64,000 nt of DNA, taken from Cynocephalus volans. Lineage: Eukaryota > Chordata > Mammalia > Dermoptera > Cynocephalidae. This document shows, piece by piece, positions 2,910 through 57,530 of this stretch (within the stretch, counting starts at the first letter, position 1; every line of letters starts with the position of its first letter). The translations under genes were made by a program, and so were the position numbers. Under the pieces are notes generated by a model that saw only the letters and a program-made list of their open reading frames with translations, did not search any database and had not been told where the DNA came from. The DNA is taken from assembly GCF_027409185.1 (NCBI RefSeq), contig NC_084469.1, forward strand, positions 83,735,918-83,799,917, given 5' to 3'.

Positions 2910-4399
2910 CCTGTCCAAGGGGCACTTCATACAGGAAGCTGCAAGGTCCAGGCACATGACTGCATTACTGGTTTCTGTGGTATGTGCAGAAAGGCCAACA
3001 CACTTCACCTGGGACAGTCGCAAGTATTCTTCTGCTTTCCTGGTTATAAGGACAATGTGTTCACTAAAACTCTTTTCCAGAAATCTGCCCAACACTTTGT
3101 AAACAATGAATACAGGCTAGTGGACTTCATTCTGAGCTTAACTACTGTGCAAGTTTATTTGAGGTTGGCAGTGAAGCTCACATCCTTTGGGGAGGGGAAG
3201 CTCTATAAGACAGAATTAGCACCCTGACTCCAGACACCACTGTGCTCTAGTGCTTCCAGGCAAAAGTAAGTTCAATTCACCCAAAAAATAACTCTTCTTT
3301 CCTCCTTCCATTACCGGAACAAGCATGAACAATCAGAGAGGCAGGCAGGTTAGACCAGAGTTCCTCTTTTTTCCCCCTTCCTCTAAACCAGTACTTCTCA
3401 AACTTTAGTTACTCGAAAATCACCTTGGGAGCCTGTGAAAACGCAGATTGCTGGGTCCCATTCCCAGAATTTCTGATCAGTAGGCCTGGGGTAGGGCTCA
3501 AAAACTTGTATTTCTAAAATGTGCCAAGTTGATACTGATGCTGCTGGTCCAGACACCACACGTTGAGAACGGCTGTTCTAAATAATTACCGAGTGCAGGA
3601 GGTCTGTCCGCGAATCTTACGAAGTGCTCTTTTCCTTCCCTTGCCTCACCTAATCGACTGCTGAGGCACCGGGCCTCGTCCTGCTCTCCATGCTTTAGCT
3701 ACAACGGCTTTATTGAATCCTGCAAAGATCCTTCCCACCTCAAGGCTTCTGCAAGGGCTGTTCTTTCTGCTTGGGCCTCTCTTACCACATCTACCCTGGC
3801 TGGCACCTTCAATCGAACAGGTCTCAGCGCAAATGGCACCTCCTCCGAGGCCGTTCCTGAATTTTTAAGAAAGGCAGCGGCCAGGCCGTGCTGTCCCACA
3901 CCCCAGTCGTCCGGCACATCTCCCCGTTGGATGTCCTACAGTCCTCGTCATTGTAGACAGTGACCTCGATAGGGTCTCTACCACGTCCGTCTGGTCCACC
4001 CATGTAAACAGTCTGCGGAATGACTGGAAGTCCTCCCTCACTCCTTTTCCTACCCCACCGTGCATCCCACCGAGCTAGTTGTTTCCAGGGACGTTTACCG
4101 TCGCCCTTTCTTGCCATCCCATATAAGCCCACAGCCGGGAAGTTCTTCCTAAAGCCAGAACCAGCACCCTGACTCCAGACACCACTGTGCACTATTGCAA
4201 AAAACAACCCTTCTTCCTCCTGGTTTCCCCGGCCCCGGCGCTCCCTGTCACTCCCGCGCCCCCGGCCGCTCGGAAAGGGTGCGGGTCTCGCCTGAGGAGG
4301 AACCAGGGCCGTGAGGCGGACACGGCCGACTCACCTCAGCACGTCGGGCTCGGCGAGGCCCAGGCGCGGGGCGAGGCGCGCGATCAACCCGGACACCAT
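2910..4399 (-). CDS. ORC6: ORC6, origin recognition complex subunit 6 (5' part: coding exons 1 and 2)
   Basis: ORC6 is the smallest subunit of the origin recognition complex and helps load MCM helicase at replication origins in the nucleus. Exon 1 (4335-4399) encodes 21 codons starting MVSGLIARLAPRLGL and ends in a GTGAGT donor. Exon 2 (2910-3039) starts after an AACCAG acceptor, restores the split Arg codon and encodes KAEEYLRLSQVKCVGLSA, then TTETSNAVMCLDLAAS, ending at PLDR before GTAAGT. The two exons join in frame (195 nt, 65 codons) and match the N-terminal TFIIB-like cyclin-box region of ORC6 as I remember it. The remaining exons are not in the window and must lie beyond position 1, so the gene is cut by the window edge rather than broken. 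It is head-to-head with VPS35 and shares its CpG island. Intron 2 carries the VNTR retroposon, inserted antisense to ORC6. Confidence 0.95.
3389..3575 (+). mobile_element. MER5A-type hAT-Charlie DNA transposon
   Basis: It starts CAGTACTTCTCAAACTTTAG and ends ACGTTGAGAACGGCTG, with CTGATGCTGCTGGTCC inside, as in MER5A. The 8-bp flanks CTCTAAAC and TTCTAAAT look like a diverged hAT target-site duplication. It lies in ORC6 intron 1. Confidence 0.85.
3690..3960 (+). repeat. L2-like LINE relic
   Basis: CTCAAGGCTTCTGCAAGGGC and CAGGTCTCAGCGCAAATGGC correspond to the well-known L2 3' region (roughly 'CTCAGGGCCTTTGCAC' and 'AGGTCTCTGCTCAAATG'). It is strongly diverged; borders are approximate. Confidence 0.55.
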
Positions 4400-4996: not shown

Positions 4997-45321
<40,325 letters not shown>

Positions 45322-50769: not shown

Positions 50770-53700
50770 TCATATGTACATATGAGGGTGGATCTTGGCC
50801 TTTCCAGGGCACAGCAGTTTGATAAATGCTTTTCTGAAACTTACGTGGCAGAGTGGGTACAGAATAGGGTTGATAGCCGAATTTAGCCAGAGGAGCCAGA
50901 AGGATGTCTCATAGAGTGAGTGCTGGATGCACGTCCCGTGGCAGGCAGCTCGGATGATCATGAGCAAAGTGTAGGGAGCCCAGCACAGGCCAAACACACA
51001 TACGATGATGGCCAGCGACTTGGCCACTCGCTTATCCCTGGAGAGCCGCAGGCGGCTGACTACAGTGCTGGCAAGGTCCTGCTGCTTCTGGGCATTGCAC
51101 ACACTCTCACTGGCCCTGTAGTGGTTCTGCCTTCGCCGTGCTGCTTTGGCTCTAAGATCCACCTGCAGAGATGGTAAATCTTGAGTCCCAGGGACATCAA
51201 ATGAAAGACCCTTGTGCTTGGGGTAGAGGCCCTGGTCTCTTCTCTTCCTGCTCCTCCTATTAGCTGCTTTAACAAAAAATATGTGTTTCTTTTTTCTCCC
51301 TTGGAAGTCCATCTCCAAGCCGTCTTGGCCATGGGCAATGTTGTCATTCCTCAAGGAGGTGCGTTTCTGAATGTTGATATAGATGCTCAAGTTGAAGTAA
51401 GTGACACTGATGAAGGGGGTGAAGAATTCGATGATGGAGGCTGTCATTAGGAAGTACCAGTTGTAGAAGAACTCAGCATAGCACTGCCCCCGGGGAAGAA
51501 TGCTTCTTTTGGCTACATACTCCCAGCTGATGATGGCAGGCCCGTAGAGGAGGAACGCTGCTACCCACACCAGCACCATCTTGAAGACGGCATCCCTGGT
51601 TGTGCCCTTCTGAGCCCTGTAAGTCACCTAGAGGGAAACAGCAGAGGCCGGTGAGAGGGGAGGTTGAGGCAGCTTTGCCCACTCAGGTTAGTAAGCAAGG
51701 GACCAACAATGAGGCCAAGTATTAGTTGTTAATATAGTCAGCATTTGGGGGATGGGTGAGTTCTATTTCCATATCAGCCAACTCTTCACCAGCTGTACTA
51801 TGCCACTCTAGGTAGCCTCCTTGCAATAGGTAAAGAAGGAGCTTTCCTCCTGGGGAGATGCTCAAGGTCTGTCCCTTTGGATGTTATGGTATTCCTTCAT
51901 GTATGAAAGCATACATCTCCAATACCCTTCACTCACTCAACAGCAGCACATGTGCTGTTACACTTCATGTCCTCTTCCAACTTTTAAGCACATCTTTACA
52001 TTTGTAACTTTATGTGCTCATTCAATATTTTTACTCTTGACCAGTTCAGTCCCCACTACTGTTCCTGTAGGTGGCACTATGTTGCAGTGGCTAAGAGCGG
52101 AGGCTCAGGGCCGGCCTGTGGCTCACTTGGGAGAGTGTGGTACTGATAACACCAAGGCCACGGTTTTGGATCCCTATGTAGGGATGGCCAGTTAGCTCAC
52201 TTCCATAGTGTGGTGCTGACAACACCAAGTCAAGGGTTAAGATCCCCTTACCGGTCATCTTTAAAAGAAAAAAAAAGAGCAGAGGCTCTGTCTGGGGTCA
52301 GGTGGCTTGGATTCAAATGCTTGCTTGGCTAGTTGTTTGTCCTAGGCAACTTACTTAACTTTTGTGTGCCTCAATTTCATGCGTAAAATAGAACATTCTT
52401 TTACCAGACCATAGGGTTGTCATGACTCTATGTATGTCAGGCTCTTGGATATAATTCATGTAAAGTTCTTAGAACAGTGTCTAGCTTAAAATAAGCCCCC
52501 AAACATTAGTTATCACTATTACTGTGTATAAAAATATCTGTAAAGGCAAAAGCATGAAATAAAAATCCTTGACTTTTCTTCCTTGTATCTTTGGTTGGCA
52601 GAAAAGGTCTGAGAAGGTGAGAGATAATTCAGGAAATGAAAGGCGCTCTAAAGATGTGGGAGATGGAAGTTTTCTTCCAACTGGCCTGCCATACTGTAGA
52701 CCTTTATGGAGCGTGTCACTAGAGCAGAATGCCCAGCTCTCAGCACAGGCCAGTGCAGAACATTTAATACTGGTCATTAGGCAATCTGACTATATATGCA
52801 TGCAATGTACACAAAACCTTTAATCACAGCCAAGGAAATCTAATTACCAAGGGAGTATCTCAGGAGAGCAAACCCAAGCAATGGGTTCTCTGAGCTCCTG
52901 GAAAGTTAGAAAATGCCACTTTAGACAACATTTGTACTTAGGAAGTGATTTTGGTCAAATACAGTGGGAATGTAAGAAACAGCAACAGGAATGGGAGACA
53001 AGGAAGATCTGAGCTTGAGCAATGATGAAAGGCAGTGGTTTTCATTCTCACCTGTACCTTATAATCACCCAAGGGCATTAAAAAAAATGCCAGTACCTAG
53101 GCCCCACTCCAAGCTAATTATGTCCAAAGTGGGTTGAGAACTGCAGCTTTAAGTAAAGCAAGTTGTATGGGTGCCAGAGTGGACTCAGCGGTGGCTCTGC
53201 CTCTGAGGATGGGGTGGGAGGGTGTGGAGTTTCTCAGGCCATGATGAGGTCTTGTGGGTGGTGAGAAGCCCAAAACCTGTTGCTGTTTTCTAATTGTTCC
53301 ATAGTGAATATGGATTACTTGAACAAAAGATAAAAGGGATTTTTTAAATCCCAAAGGAAAATTGTCCTTTTTCACTTCTCTTGGGTTTTCCTGCCTCACC
53401 ATAAGGCTTATTTCTGCCCCTGCTGACTGATTTCTTTGAGACTTATCATCCCCGTCTGCAAAATGGAAGTAAAGAAAGTAGTTTCCATTCATCTTACAGG
53501 GAGGTGAGGACCAAATGAACTAGCCATCATAGAGGTTAGAGCCAAAGGGCTTTCAACCCCTCACTTTTCTGATGGGGAAACAGACTCCTAGAAGCATCAG
53601 GATGTGCCCAAGGTCACGCAATGTAAGTGGTTAAATGAAGACTGGAACCAGATCTCCTGACTTCTGAGCCAGCATGAAAAACACCACTGAGGTGAGCGGA

Positions 53701-55358
53701 CCATCACCCTTGTGATGGCTCATGCAAACCCTTCCTGTTGCTGTTAGCCCTGAGAGCCTCACACTGAAAAGCAGGGGCTCTTCCCACCCAGCGCTGTTCT
53801 GGGGAGGCAGTCATCAACTCTTAACCAGGGAGGGCAAGCAGCCACTTGACACCCACATCACTTTTCCACCAGGCCTGGAGTTTGGACTTTTGATCTTATC
53901 TCCAGTTATTTAATCAGCATGAAATCAGCAAATATGCCTAGCACTGTTCCAGGCACTGGGGATACATCCGTGAACAAGACAATGCCTCTGCCCCCTTAGG
54001 GTGCTGGATTCTAGTGGGGGACACAGACACAGACCTAGAATATACTGCCAGGTGGAGATAGCATGAGCAGAGTAGGGAAGGGGCAACAGATAGTGCCAGG
54101 GCTGCTGTTTGACATGGGTAACTTAGGAAGACCTGTTGAGGAGGTGACAGTTGAGCCTATGTACAGAGGAGCCTATGTGGAAAGGTAAAGGTGGCATAAC
54201 AGGGGCCGGTCCGTAGCTCACTTGGGACAATGTGGTGCCGATAACACCAAGGCCACGGGTTTGGATCCCTGTATAGGGATGGCCGGTTAGCTCACTTGGG
54301 AGAGCGTGGTGCTGACAACATCAAATCAAGGGTTAAGATCCCCTTACCCGGCATCTTTTAAAACAAACAAACAAACAAACAAACAAACAAACAAACAAAC
54401 AAATGTGCCACAACAGGACTTCAGGTTTGCATCCCATTCCCTGACCACATTCATGACCACAATACCTATGGTATTACCTATGTAAATATAAAAATAAATC
54501 CTGCAGAATGCACAATTATAGTGCATTCTAAGTTTTTTATTTGTTAAATGTTAAGTATTTAAAACAGATCACAACACTTGTAATCTAGCTTGGCATCTCC
54601 CTTCTTTTCCTTTTGAATATGGGGGTCCTGAGAATATATGGAGGTAGTGTGGTGGAGGTTTCCCTAACTACCTGACTAGACTACTAACTAGTCCAGCAAC
54701 TCCAAACCCAACCGTGTCCCGCCTGTCCCCCACCCCAGCAGGTTTGTGTCCTGCCTCGGCCCTTCTTACCGCCTTGGTGACGGAGATGAACCTGTCGTAG
54801 CTGATGAAGACGATGTTGAAGACCGAGGCGGTGCACACCAGGTAATCCGTCACCAGCCACAATTTACACAGACCCTTCCCGAATTTCCACTCCCCGGTCA
54901 GGACGTAAGGGATGTACAGCGGGATGCAGAAGCCGCCTGCGGACACGGAGAGGCGGTGGGCGGCCGGCGGAGGGGGCACCGCGGGGCGTGGCGCTCCGGC
55001 CCGGGTCGGGGTGTCCAACTCCCGAGGGAGACCTCCGGGTGCAGGGATCCCCTCTCCAGGGCTGCTCAGGCGCCCCCGGCCCCCACCCTACCCCCGGGCC
55101 GCACTCACCCACCAGCAGGTCGGCAACGGCCAAGTTGAGGAAGAAGAAGTTGCCGCGGGAGTGCAGGCTGCGGTCCACGGCGAAGGCCACCACCACCAGC
55201 GCGTTGCCCAGCACCGTGGCCAGCGCCAGCAGCGCCATGAGCGTCGCCAGCAGCGCGGCCACGGGCGCTGAGAAGTGGCCGGCGTGCGGCCCGGGGTGCA
55301 GTCCCGGCCCCGGCCCCGGCCTGGGGGCGCTCGCGTTGGCCGACGCGTTGTGCTCCAT
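50770..55358 (-). CDS. Histamine H3-like aminergic GPCR (third H3/H4-type receptor), complete, 3 exons, 424 aa
   Basis: A rhodopsin-family receptor with exons at 55109-55358 (250 nt), 54770-54936 (167 nt) and 50770-51627 (858 nt, TGA stop). All junctions are GT-AG, at the positions HRH3 and HRH4 use: after the TM2 LLVG and in ICL2 before VTYRAQ. N4 and N8 are N-glycosylation sequons. N52 (1.50), D80 (2.50), C107 (3.25), D131-R132-F133 (DRF, as in H3), CWAPY 354-358 and NPILY 392-396 are intact. D114 (3.32) and E206 (5.46), which bind the amine and imidazole of histamine in H3, are both kept at H3's residue numbers. The runs CYAEFFYNWYFL and LCWAPYTLLMIIRAACHG are H3-like. ICL3 is shorter than in H3 and basic, and the N-terminus and C-tail differ, so it is neither HRH3 nor HRH4. 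By homology it should be a Gi/o-coupled plasma-membrane amine receptor. The ligand is inferred. Confidence 0.9.
52107..52274 (+). mobile_element. tRNA-Ile-derived SINE, dimer, GATAACACC type
   Basis: Target duplication AAGAGC(G/A)GAGGCTC at 52093-52106 and 52275-52288. The left monomer has TACTGATAACACCAAGGCCA and the right TGCTGACAACACCAAGTCAA. It lies in receptor intron 2. Confidence 0.92.
52290..52515 (+). repeat. MIR relic
   Basis: TCAGGTGGCTTGGATTCAAA TGC and CTAGGCAACTTACTTAAC followed by TGCCTCAATTTCAT are MIR text. It lies in receptor intron 2. Confidence 0.75.
53033..53148 (+). mobile_element. MER5-like hAT fragment
   Basis: CAGTGGTTTTCATTCTCACC, CCAGTACCTAGGCCCCACTC and GTGGGTTGAGAACTGCAG. 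Confidence 0.55.
53920..54180 (+). repeat. L2-like relic
   Basis: GTTCCAGGCACTGGGGATAC ATCCGTGAACAAGACA (two parts) is typical L2 text. It lies in receptor intron 2. Confidence 0.6.
54203..54403 (+). mobile_element. tRNA-Ile-derived SINE, dimer, with (CAAA)n tail
   Basis: GATAACACC-type left monomer, right monomer with GGCCGGTTAGCTCACTTGGG, and a tail of about ten CAAA units (54363-54403). It lies in receptor intron 2, about 370 bp from exon 2 on the donor side. Confidence 0.92.
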
Positions 55359-55550
55359 GCGGCGGCGGTGGCTCCAGGGGCCGTGGCGGGGCGGGCGAGG
55401 GCACCCGCGTCCGGGAGGGGTGCGGCGGCCGCGGGAGCGAGGGCGGCGCGGAGGCCGCGCGGGGCGCCCGCAGCCGGGGCGGGGCCGGGGCACGGGGCCC
55501 GCGGGCGGAGGAAGACGTCTCCACCCCCGGCCGCCCACGCAGCTGTCCTA
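54890..55550. promoter_or_regulatory. CpG island over the first exons of the H3-like receptor
   Basis: A sharply bounded GC- and CpG-rich block covers exons 1-2 and about 200 bp upstream of the ATG, unlike the AT-rich flanks. An intact CpG island at the 5' end suggests the promoter is still used in the germ line or early embryo. No TATA box was seen. Confidence 0.7.
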
Positions 55551-55559
55551 GAGTCTCTG

Positions 55560-57530
55560 AAGCAAGTTGTTATTACTATTTCCTCAAATTGGAATAGTCT
55601 TAGGTTTTATTTCAATCCTAAAAGTAATACCTGCACTTGTGAAAAGAAATCAAACAATGTAGAAGGGCATGAAATAGTGAAATTCCTTGCAATAGTTCCT
55701 CCCAGAAATACCCACTTGGAACATTTTGGTTTAAGTCCTCCCAAGCTTCAGACCCTCATCTATTTATTTGTTTCCCTAATATGTATATAACCTGCTCTTT
55801 CTCCCCACGAAATAATGCATCTAGACATTTTGCCACTTCCACAACATGGGCCACCGTCATTATCCTTAATGCCACCATCGTTTTCCCGTTGTATGGATGA
55901 GAGCGCATTTGGCCAGTCTGTTGATGGACGGCTGGCAGTTGTTTGTAAGTTTGGTTTGGCTGTGCTGTGTATCTTTACTCACTTGTCCCATAATTTCCTC
56001 AAGAGAAATGAATGAAAGCGGAAGTGCTGGGACAAAGAGAATGCACAGTTACTATTTTATAACGTTGCCGGCTTGCCCTCCGGAAAAGTCGTTCCAGTTT
56101 ACAGTCAAACCAGCCACTTTAACGTTTTTCACAGTGGGTAGTGATGGTGTAGGGTGTTATCTTGGTTTCCCAGAGTTGCCCACCTCGTGCCGTGGTCCCT
56201 TTGCTTCTCTAACACAGGAAGTCCTTCCCCCTGGGAACTGGCTTAGCCATTTGGATCACAGGGTTGAGGGACCGGAGAGACAGGCTTTCTCCCAGAGGGA
56301 GTGATGGCCCCTGCGGCTGGAGATTACCGTTGATGGAAGGCTGCACTTTAACACTCTTGCCTCCTGAGTGGGGGCAGGGTCTGCCAGGTGTCTTCTCCCT
56401 GTGGCTTGGAGGGGTGTGTGTGTGTGGAAGGTGAACTGGAGTGGGAGGATGTGTCTAAATTACCCAGACTCTGCAGTTGCTTTATCTGTCCAGGTTATTT
56501 GCCTCTTGTAGACCAGTTTGCTCCAGTGATGGGAAAAGTGACCCAGTGTCATGGAAGCAGATTCTTGAATCACAGCACAGTAACAGACCCTCTCAGGAAT
56601 GGACCCTTGGGGATCAGTTAGGGCAGTGACTCTCAAACTTTTTGAACCACACTCACAGTAAGAAATACTTTTTACATTGTAACCCAATGTGTCACACACA
56701 CCCACCCATCCCCATACACATACACCCTTACATATACATGTACACATTTCAATGGGGAAAAAGTTTAACAAAAACAGTATTTGCCGTTAGTATGATGCAT
56801 TCTGATATATTTGGTTCTATCCTATGTTTTATTATTAGTTTTTGCTGCTAGTCTTAACCCACTGCATGTATTTCATAATCCTCAACCGACTCTCAACTTG
56901 CATTTGAGAGATAATAATCTAATTGAACCCCTTATTTTTACACATAGGGAAACAGTCCAGAATGGGAAGAGACTCACCTGGGGACAAACAGGGAGTCCAG
57001 GCAGAGTAGAGCTGGCACCAGGATCTTCTGGCTGTGAGACCAGAGCTTTTCTCTGGCTCCAGACTGATACTGACAGACATGGCCTGTCAAGAGATGACTG
57101 TCCGTCTCCTGGTGACAAGGATGCTTTAAGGGCTGGAAACAACTCCGATGATTAAGGAAGGAAGAAACAGGCCAGCATTTGTCTCCTTTCTTGTCCACTA
57201 ATTGCCTCTTCATTTTGCTGAAAAGACCCTTCCCCCACCCCCTTCCTTTGGTGCCACAGCTAATTGCTGCTATTTAGCAGCAATCACTGCACACCCTAAT
57301 CTGGAGCTGGCAAAATGACTTGTTGGAGCTGGTGGACCCATGTGAGAGGAACTGAAGTTTCCATTGAGACTGGCCTGCCAGGCTGTGGATTGCTCCCCAG
57401 GAAAGGTGATGGCAGGTTAGGTAGGGGACACTTGTACTGTCACTGTTGTCTTTCTGTAAAAAGACAGGAGAGCAGAGTCTGGCAGGCATCAGCTATTGAG
57501 TGGCTAGGCGACCAGGCTTAAGAGTCAAAT
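55560..57530. other. Intergenic, upstream of the receptor; no gene seen
   Basis: Apart from a short CA-rich stretch near 56690-56740, nothing was recognised. The reading frames look fortuitous. Confidence 0.5.

Follow-up and report, generated by a model that had tools for sequence, protein, structure and literature searches.

Textbooks count four histamine receptors. Whether there is a fifth is the question raised by a gene of the Philippine colugo (Cynocephalus volans, order Dermoptera) that lies in a stretch of 64,000 nucleotides of its genome (C18:83735918-83799917, the whole of which is called the window here, with positions counted from its first letter). An earlier reading of the window, made from its letters without database searches (the sequence-only reading), had described the gene as an intact receptor gene of the H3/H4 type next to VPS35 and as a separate ancient paralogue of the known genes. 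The answer given here, to which a probability of roughly 0.8 is attached, is that the gene represents HRH5 in the colugo. As a paralogue of HRH3 and HRH4, HRH5 would be older than the split between amphibians and amniotes, and the colugo gene is predicted to encode a histamine-binding receptor coupled to Gi/o.

The gene occupies window positions 50770-55358 on the minus strand, where three exons join to 424 open codons with no stop and no frameshift, a structure that the sequence-only reading had proposed and that the joined sequence confirms. The first coding exon (55109-55358, minus strand, 250 nt, with its ATG at 55358) encodes the N-terminus, transmembrane helix 1 (TM1), intracellular loop 1 (ICL1) and the start of TM2. 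After intron 1 (54937-55108, minus strand, 172 nt, GT-AG, phase 1), the second coding exon (54770-54936, minus strand, 167 nt) encodes the rest of TM2, TM3 with D114, the DRF motif and the start of ICL2; after intron 2 (51628-54769, minus strand, 3142 nt, GT-AG, phase 0), the third (50770-51627, minus strand, 858 nt including the stop) encodes TM4, extracellular loop 2 (ECL2), TM5 with E206, ICL3, TM6 with CWAPY, TM7 with NPILY, and helix 8. All three of the motifs that had been reported (DRF, CWAPY and NPILY) are thus in the translation. The CpG island that had been noticed at the 5' end (54500-55750, unstranded, limits approximate) is likewise apparent in four intervals of 500 bases that begin at 54500, 54750, 55000 and 55250, in which the GC fraction is 0.53-0.79 and the observed/expected ratio of CpG is 0.73-0.99, compared to 0.40 and 0.29 in the window as a whole. 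The Pfam family 7tm_1 matches across the whole core of the protein (profile positions 1-260 of 260, E 5.1e-57), and by this match the product is a class A (rhodopsin-like) G protein-coupled receptor (GPCR).

The colugo genome has both HRH3, at about 55.94 Mb of C1, and HRH4, at about 20.75 Mb of C21; the possibility that the gene is HRH3 or HRH4 itself was rejected because both were found at these other places. Their exon junctions fall at the same codons and in the same phases as those of the colugo receptor gene (donors GTGG|GTAAA and GCT|GTGAG in HRH3, GTGG|GTAAG and GCT|GTAAG in HRH4), and exon 2 is 167 nt long in both HRH3 and the colugo receptor gene; the intron positions and phases that had been attributed to HRH3 and HRH4 were therefore seen in both genes of this genome, and the matching junctions imply one ancestral structure common to the three genes. 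An origin as a retrogene was rejected because the introns are at the HRH3/HRH4 positions.

Where the gene belongs was judged from several trees. In a core tree of 21 H5-type and 16 HRH3 rows, built without HRH4 or an outgroup, the two types are split at 100/100, and nine genera (Tupaia, Pelodiscus, Alligator, Podarcis, Heteronotia, Rhinatrema, Ascaphus, Pleurodeles and Cynocephalus) are contained in both groups. The colugo gene is joined to four other placentals at 100/100, both in the core tree and in a tree to which HRH4 and HRH1 were added, and at 88/99 in a tree with three outgroups. With HRH4 and HRH1 added, H3 plus H4 stand against the H5 rows at 97/92, and in a tree with a CHRM3 fragment as the outgroup, a branch with 95/95 has H5 on one of its sides. 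Forcing the colugo gene into HRH3 in the CHRM3 tree costs 23.4 log-likelihood units, with a p-value of 0.026 in the approximately unbiased (AU) test. Seventeen sites separate the other 20 H5 rows from the 16 H3 rows, in the sense that no letter is common to both groups and each side has at most two letters; at these the colugo protein has the H5 letter 16 times, the H3 letter never and another letter once. Three points weigh against so clean a picture: the AU rejection of HRH3 membership is moderate; the HRH1 row, which is very long, attaches inside the set of H5 rows, so that the root falls there; and a tree under the simpler LG+G4 model with the distant outgroups HRH1, CHRM3 and ADRA2 is also rooted among the H5 rows, H5 being undivided in 10% of its bootstraps while HRH3 stays grouped at 91/94. 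The placement of the colugo gene within H5 is firmer than the position of the root, and the sister of H5 may be H3 alone or H3 and H4 together. Judged by these trees, the gene is an old paralogue that predates the split between amphibians and amniotes; the earlier claim of a separate ancient paralogue is supported by the 100/100 split and by the AU test, and the check for a recent copy inside the HRH3 clade placed the colugo gene outside HRH3.

A clade of this description already has a name. In its passages on these receptors, a 2019 survey of vertebrate GPCRs named, from sequence only, an HRH5 clade that forms its own group within the H1/H3/H4 subtree and that is recorded from amphibians, sauropsids, marsupials and a few placentals (PMC6504862). 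As far as those passages go, the survey's clade and the relatives of the colugo gene have the same subtree position and the same tetrapod distribution, and the clade of the colugo gene is very probably HRH5 of that survey, an identification made by position and distribution and not by direct comparison with the gar protein ENSLOCP00000006664. The colugo gene is a further member of a named kind, and is less new than the sequence-only reading implied, because the clade had been named before. The symbol HRH5 is also used in the relevant part of a chicken RNA-seq paper (PMC12752978). Two other names were considered and set aside: GPR166P, which is given no link to histamine receptors where it is mentioned in surveys of dog and rat GPCRs (PMC2651185, PMC2117022), and chicken HRH3L, which is placed on GGA2 in the portion of its source that deals with it (PMC7318453) and would on that account be a different gene. 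The HRH3L that appears in a list for songbird RA is not assignable from that entry (PMC7599217).

The distribution of the gene was examined in the best 120 of 1209 matches of a homology search, some of which are partial. Identity to the colugo protein among these reaches 89% in squirrels and is 82% in the treeshrew, 80% in the rabbit, 78% in the pika, 70-72% in marsupials and 64-75% in birds, turtles, crocodilians, lizards, snakes, Sphenodon and amphibians. Seven placental species are represented among the 120, all of them Euarchontoglires (Cynocephalus volans, Sciurus carolinensis, Sciurus vulgaris, Urocitellus parryii, Tupaia chinensis, Oryctolagus cuniculus and Ochotona princeps, with the entry for Sciurus carolinensis being a cluster of 20 sequences represented by one name), and no primate protein is found there; the sequence-only reading had supposed the human gene to be lost, decayed or unannotated. 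A second search, with the ICL3 region of the NCBI protein model of the colugo gene (P0001, residues 330-445), returned 39 proteins, of which three besides that of the colugo are placental, and no new placental order; because it missed the treeshrew and pika copies, this search was not sensitive. The patchy placental pattern suggests repeated loss, since placental copies, where intact, should rank above those of marsupials, although lower-ranked fragments would lie outside the best 120.

Histamine is the presumed ligand of the colugo receptor, and the comparison with H3 begins with D114 and E206, which had been assigned to the residue numbers of H3 and which both align with D114 and E206 of the human H3 receptor (chain 9jeq_R). 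In the sections of three papers that report structures and mutants, the following residues are described as contacts of histamine or of H3 ligands, or as a switch (PMC11187927, PMC9569329, PMC10589313). D114, Y115, C118, E206, W371, Y374, F398, L401 and W402 are identical in 21/21 H5 and 16/16 HRH3 rows, and T119 is kept in 20/21 and 15/16, respectively; Y189 and F193 vary in some H5 rows, and the colugo keeps both. Only one of 32 tabulated positions, W393, has no letter common to H5 and HRH3, the H5 letter being L or F. HRH4 (two rows) departs from H3 by Y94H, Y167N, T375S, M378T and L401Q, whereas the colugo gene retains the H3 letter at all five; HRH4 is much more diverged, and has the intron positions, D3.32 and E5.46 in common with the colugo gene. 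HRH3 has in common with it the intron positions and phases, the core of seven transmembrane helices, the histamine-contact residues and the DRF, CWAPY and NPxxY motifs, but differs by its separate group in the tree, its location on another chromosome, its ICL3 sequence and its C-terminal tail. Identity to human H3 extends to 12 of 17 residues of ICL2, 28 of 35 of TM5 and 30 of 36 of TM6, and because these three regions resemble those of human H3, coupling to Gi/o is likely.

The mechanism that these comparisons point to is one in which the receptor would stand at the plasma membrane and bind histamine between D114 (3.32) and E206 (5.46) with a high, H3-like affinity; coupling to Gi/o would lower cyclic AMP and transmitter release; agonists and antagonists of H3 would be expected to act on the receptor as well; and the distinct ICL3 may give it regulation or partners other than those of H3. 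The best-surviving alternative is that an intact H5 paralogue responds to a ligand other than histamine (another imidazole or amine), or to none because it is constitutively active, and has kept the pocket by descent. It would be in keeping with an ICL3 and an N-terminus that differ from those of H3, with the replacement of H3 residue W393, which adjoins E395 of the pocket, by L or F in 21/21 H5 rows, and with the literature, in the open-access part of which no functional study of HRH5 and no published pharmacology was found (subscription journals being mostly uncovered). This alternative is nevertheless considered unlikely, given that the residues by which the H3 receptor contacts histamine are the same in 21/21 H5 rows, or in 20 for T119.

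The colugo copy is best read as a gene that has been kept under constraint. The end branches of the core tree, in changes per column, are 0.081 for the colugo, 0.050 for the squirrel, 0.15 for the treeshrew, 0.09 for the rabbit and 0.13 for the pika. At 188 otherwise invariant columns there are three colugo-only changes (R66H, L127F and M148T), and at the 32 tabulated positions there are none. In neutral simulations, which modelled substitutions alone, the number of copies out of 400 that acquired no stop was 72 at 0.05 changes per site, 14 at 0.10, 3 at 0.15 and 0 at 0.20. With a neutral rate of about 2.2e-9 per site per year and an age of about 80 million years for the colugo lineage, approximately 0.18 neutral changes per site are expected since the lineage arose, which makes long neglect very unlikely. 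What speaks against constraint up to the present is that a loss of function in the last 20 million years or so could escape notice, since 72/400 copies still lacked a stop after 0.05 changes per site. The corresponding alternative, a very recent pseudogene or an unexpressed relic in which a stop has not yet been acquired, could appeal to this same fraction and to the loss that seems common in placentals (seven species, all Euarchontoglires, among the best 120 of 1209 matches), but the absence of any disabling change, the intact splice sites and CpG island, an end branch below those of rabbit, pika and treeshrew, and the 32 tabulated positions free of colugo-only changes make it a quite improbable one.

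The weakest alternative is that HRH3 was recently duplicated in the lineage of the colugo. It could be suggested by HRH3 being nearest among the proteins of solved structure and by the annotation name H3-like, but is refuted by the 100/100 split; the location of the colugo's own HRH3 on another chromosome and the identity of the colugo protein to that of the grey squirrel (88-89%) versus seven HRH3 rows (53-59%) also speak against it.

Beyond the colugo HRH5 gene itself, there is a slight preference for a wider proposal, according to which a fifth histamine receptor that works through Gi, has high affinity and keeps a pocket of the H3 type may survive scattered in Euarchontoglires (colugo, treeshrew, squirrels, rabbit and pika) after separate losses in primates, many rodents and other placental branches, so that in rabbits, squirrels and treeshrews H3 drugs would act on a second target that has gone unrecognised. 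If true, a fifth receptor with practically the pocket of H3 would alter the reading of H3 pharmacology in rabbit and treeshrew, and the species with and without the gene form a natural set in which one can ask what the gene did. The intact colugo copy, the conserved pocket, the ICL3 motifs described below and the odd placental distribution are new here, and make the function of HRH5 testable.

The ICL3 of the colugo protein is identical to that of camel H3 at 8 of 92 positions, the N-terminus at 8 of 20, and helix 8 with the C-tail at 16 of 26; of the three regions that had been called clearly unlike H3, ICL3 and the N-terminus bear this out, and the C-tail differs less. Motifs were counted in 132 proteins from the H5 homology and ICL3-region searches and in 120 HRH3 proteins, partial ones included. 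The colugo ICL3 contains HIFFVK at residues 254-259 (P0001 356-361) and QDLPSLQV at residues 288-295 (P0001 390-397). The pattern [FN]F[VM]K occurs in 104/132 proteins of the H5 set, FFVKP in 89/132 and QDL..LQ[VM] in 63/132, versus 0/120 HRH3 proteins in each case; in the tail, KIHP occurs in 127/132, HRH3 having KLKxQP instead in 90/120. The separation is blurred by one protein among the 132 that has an H3-type TM3 motif and by one that has an H3-type VGAFCIP. The ICL3 motifs may be docking sites for a regulator.

As for their ultimate origin, HRH3, HRH4 and HRH5 are perhaps what is left of the genome duplications that took place early in vertebrate history. The test for duplicated blocks used three families (oxysterol-binding, cerebellin and NFAT) chosen by their human map positions. 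An oxysterol-binding gene lies approximately 47 kb from HRH3 and another approximately 263 kb from HRH4, the two pairs occupying C1:55.94-56.00 Mb and C21:20.47-20.76 Mb, and because each has such a neighbour, the HRH3 and HRH4 blocks look duplicated. Four C1q-type exons, which we take to be cerebellin-like (4 of 30 C1q matches examined), are on C1, C21, C18 and C3, at distances of approximately 6 Mb from HRH3, 46 Mb from HRH4 and 2.2 Mb from the colugo HRH5. The placement of the oxysterol-binding and cerebellin-like sequences makes an origin by genome duplication fitting but unproven, and two results count against it: no oxysterol-binding gene is near the colugo HRH5, those on C18 being at 6.47 Mb, and the ten NFAT matches include C18, with C1 and C21 having none. 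In the species listed with both genes, the longest contigs that carry H5 and HRH3 differ in length; examples are Aix galericulata (21.2 Mb for H5, 15.8 Mb for HRH3), Heteronotia binoei (72 and 206 Mb) and Rhineura floridana (41 and 158 Mb). For this reason H5 and HRH3 seem to be on different chromosomes in those species too.

The order of genes on C18 is ORC6, VPS35, the colugo receptor gene (minus strand) and SHCBP1. Exon matches of the Pfam family Vps35 span window positions 27932-44562 on the plus strand, so the adjacency to VPS35 claimed by the sequence-only reading holds. ORC6 is represented by one exon match (2910-3047, minus strand), the sole one in the genome search. SHCBP1 lies beyond the window, approximately 54 kb past exon 1, and is marked by an SHCBP_N match on the plus strand (C18:83844876-83858933); SHCBP_N matched two places, on C18 and C13, of which the stronger (C18) was taken as SHCBP1 by position, and the Beta_helix family, used as another probe for SHCBP1, had no match on C18. 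Human 16q11 presumably has the same order of neighbours, minus the receptor.

The guess that annotations would call the gene H3-like proved right: the NCBI record titled 'histamine H3 receptor-like [Cynocephalus volans]' (P0001) is 100% identical over 424 residues. This model has 526 amino acids, its 102 additional N-terminal residues being supplied by way of an extra 5' exon, the coding part of which is at 55792-55908 on the minus strand (its donor GT occupies 55791-55790 and the acceptor AG 55549-55548, coordinates derived by hand). The models of grey squirrel, rabbit and pika begin with MEPN..., equivalent to the colugo MEHN... at 55358, and the treeshrew model begins a few residues after the equivalent of the colugo methionine. 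Because these other placental models are without the 102 residues, the extra exon is probably a 5' untranslated exon or a model error, and is doubtful as coding sequence. Residues 1-102 of P0001 (window positions 55356-55908) are a proline- and arginine-rich stretch of the CpG island read as protein. Among the relatives, the Urocitellus parryii models P0007 and P0048 have an altered TM2-ECL1 region or a shortened ICL3, as annotation errors or splice forms. Intron 2 of the colugo gene contains two tRNA-like repeat heads, matched by Rfam on the plus strand at 54282-54353 and 52186-52257; both sit in longer repeats with a two-part tRNA-like build, as judged by eye, which we take to resemble the tRNA-Ile-derived CYN short interspersed elements (SINEs) of colugos.

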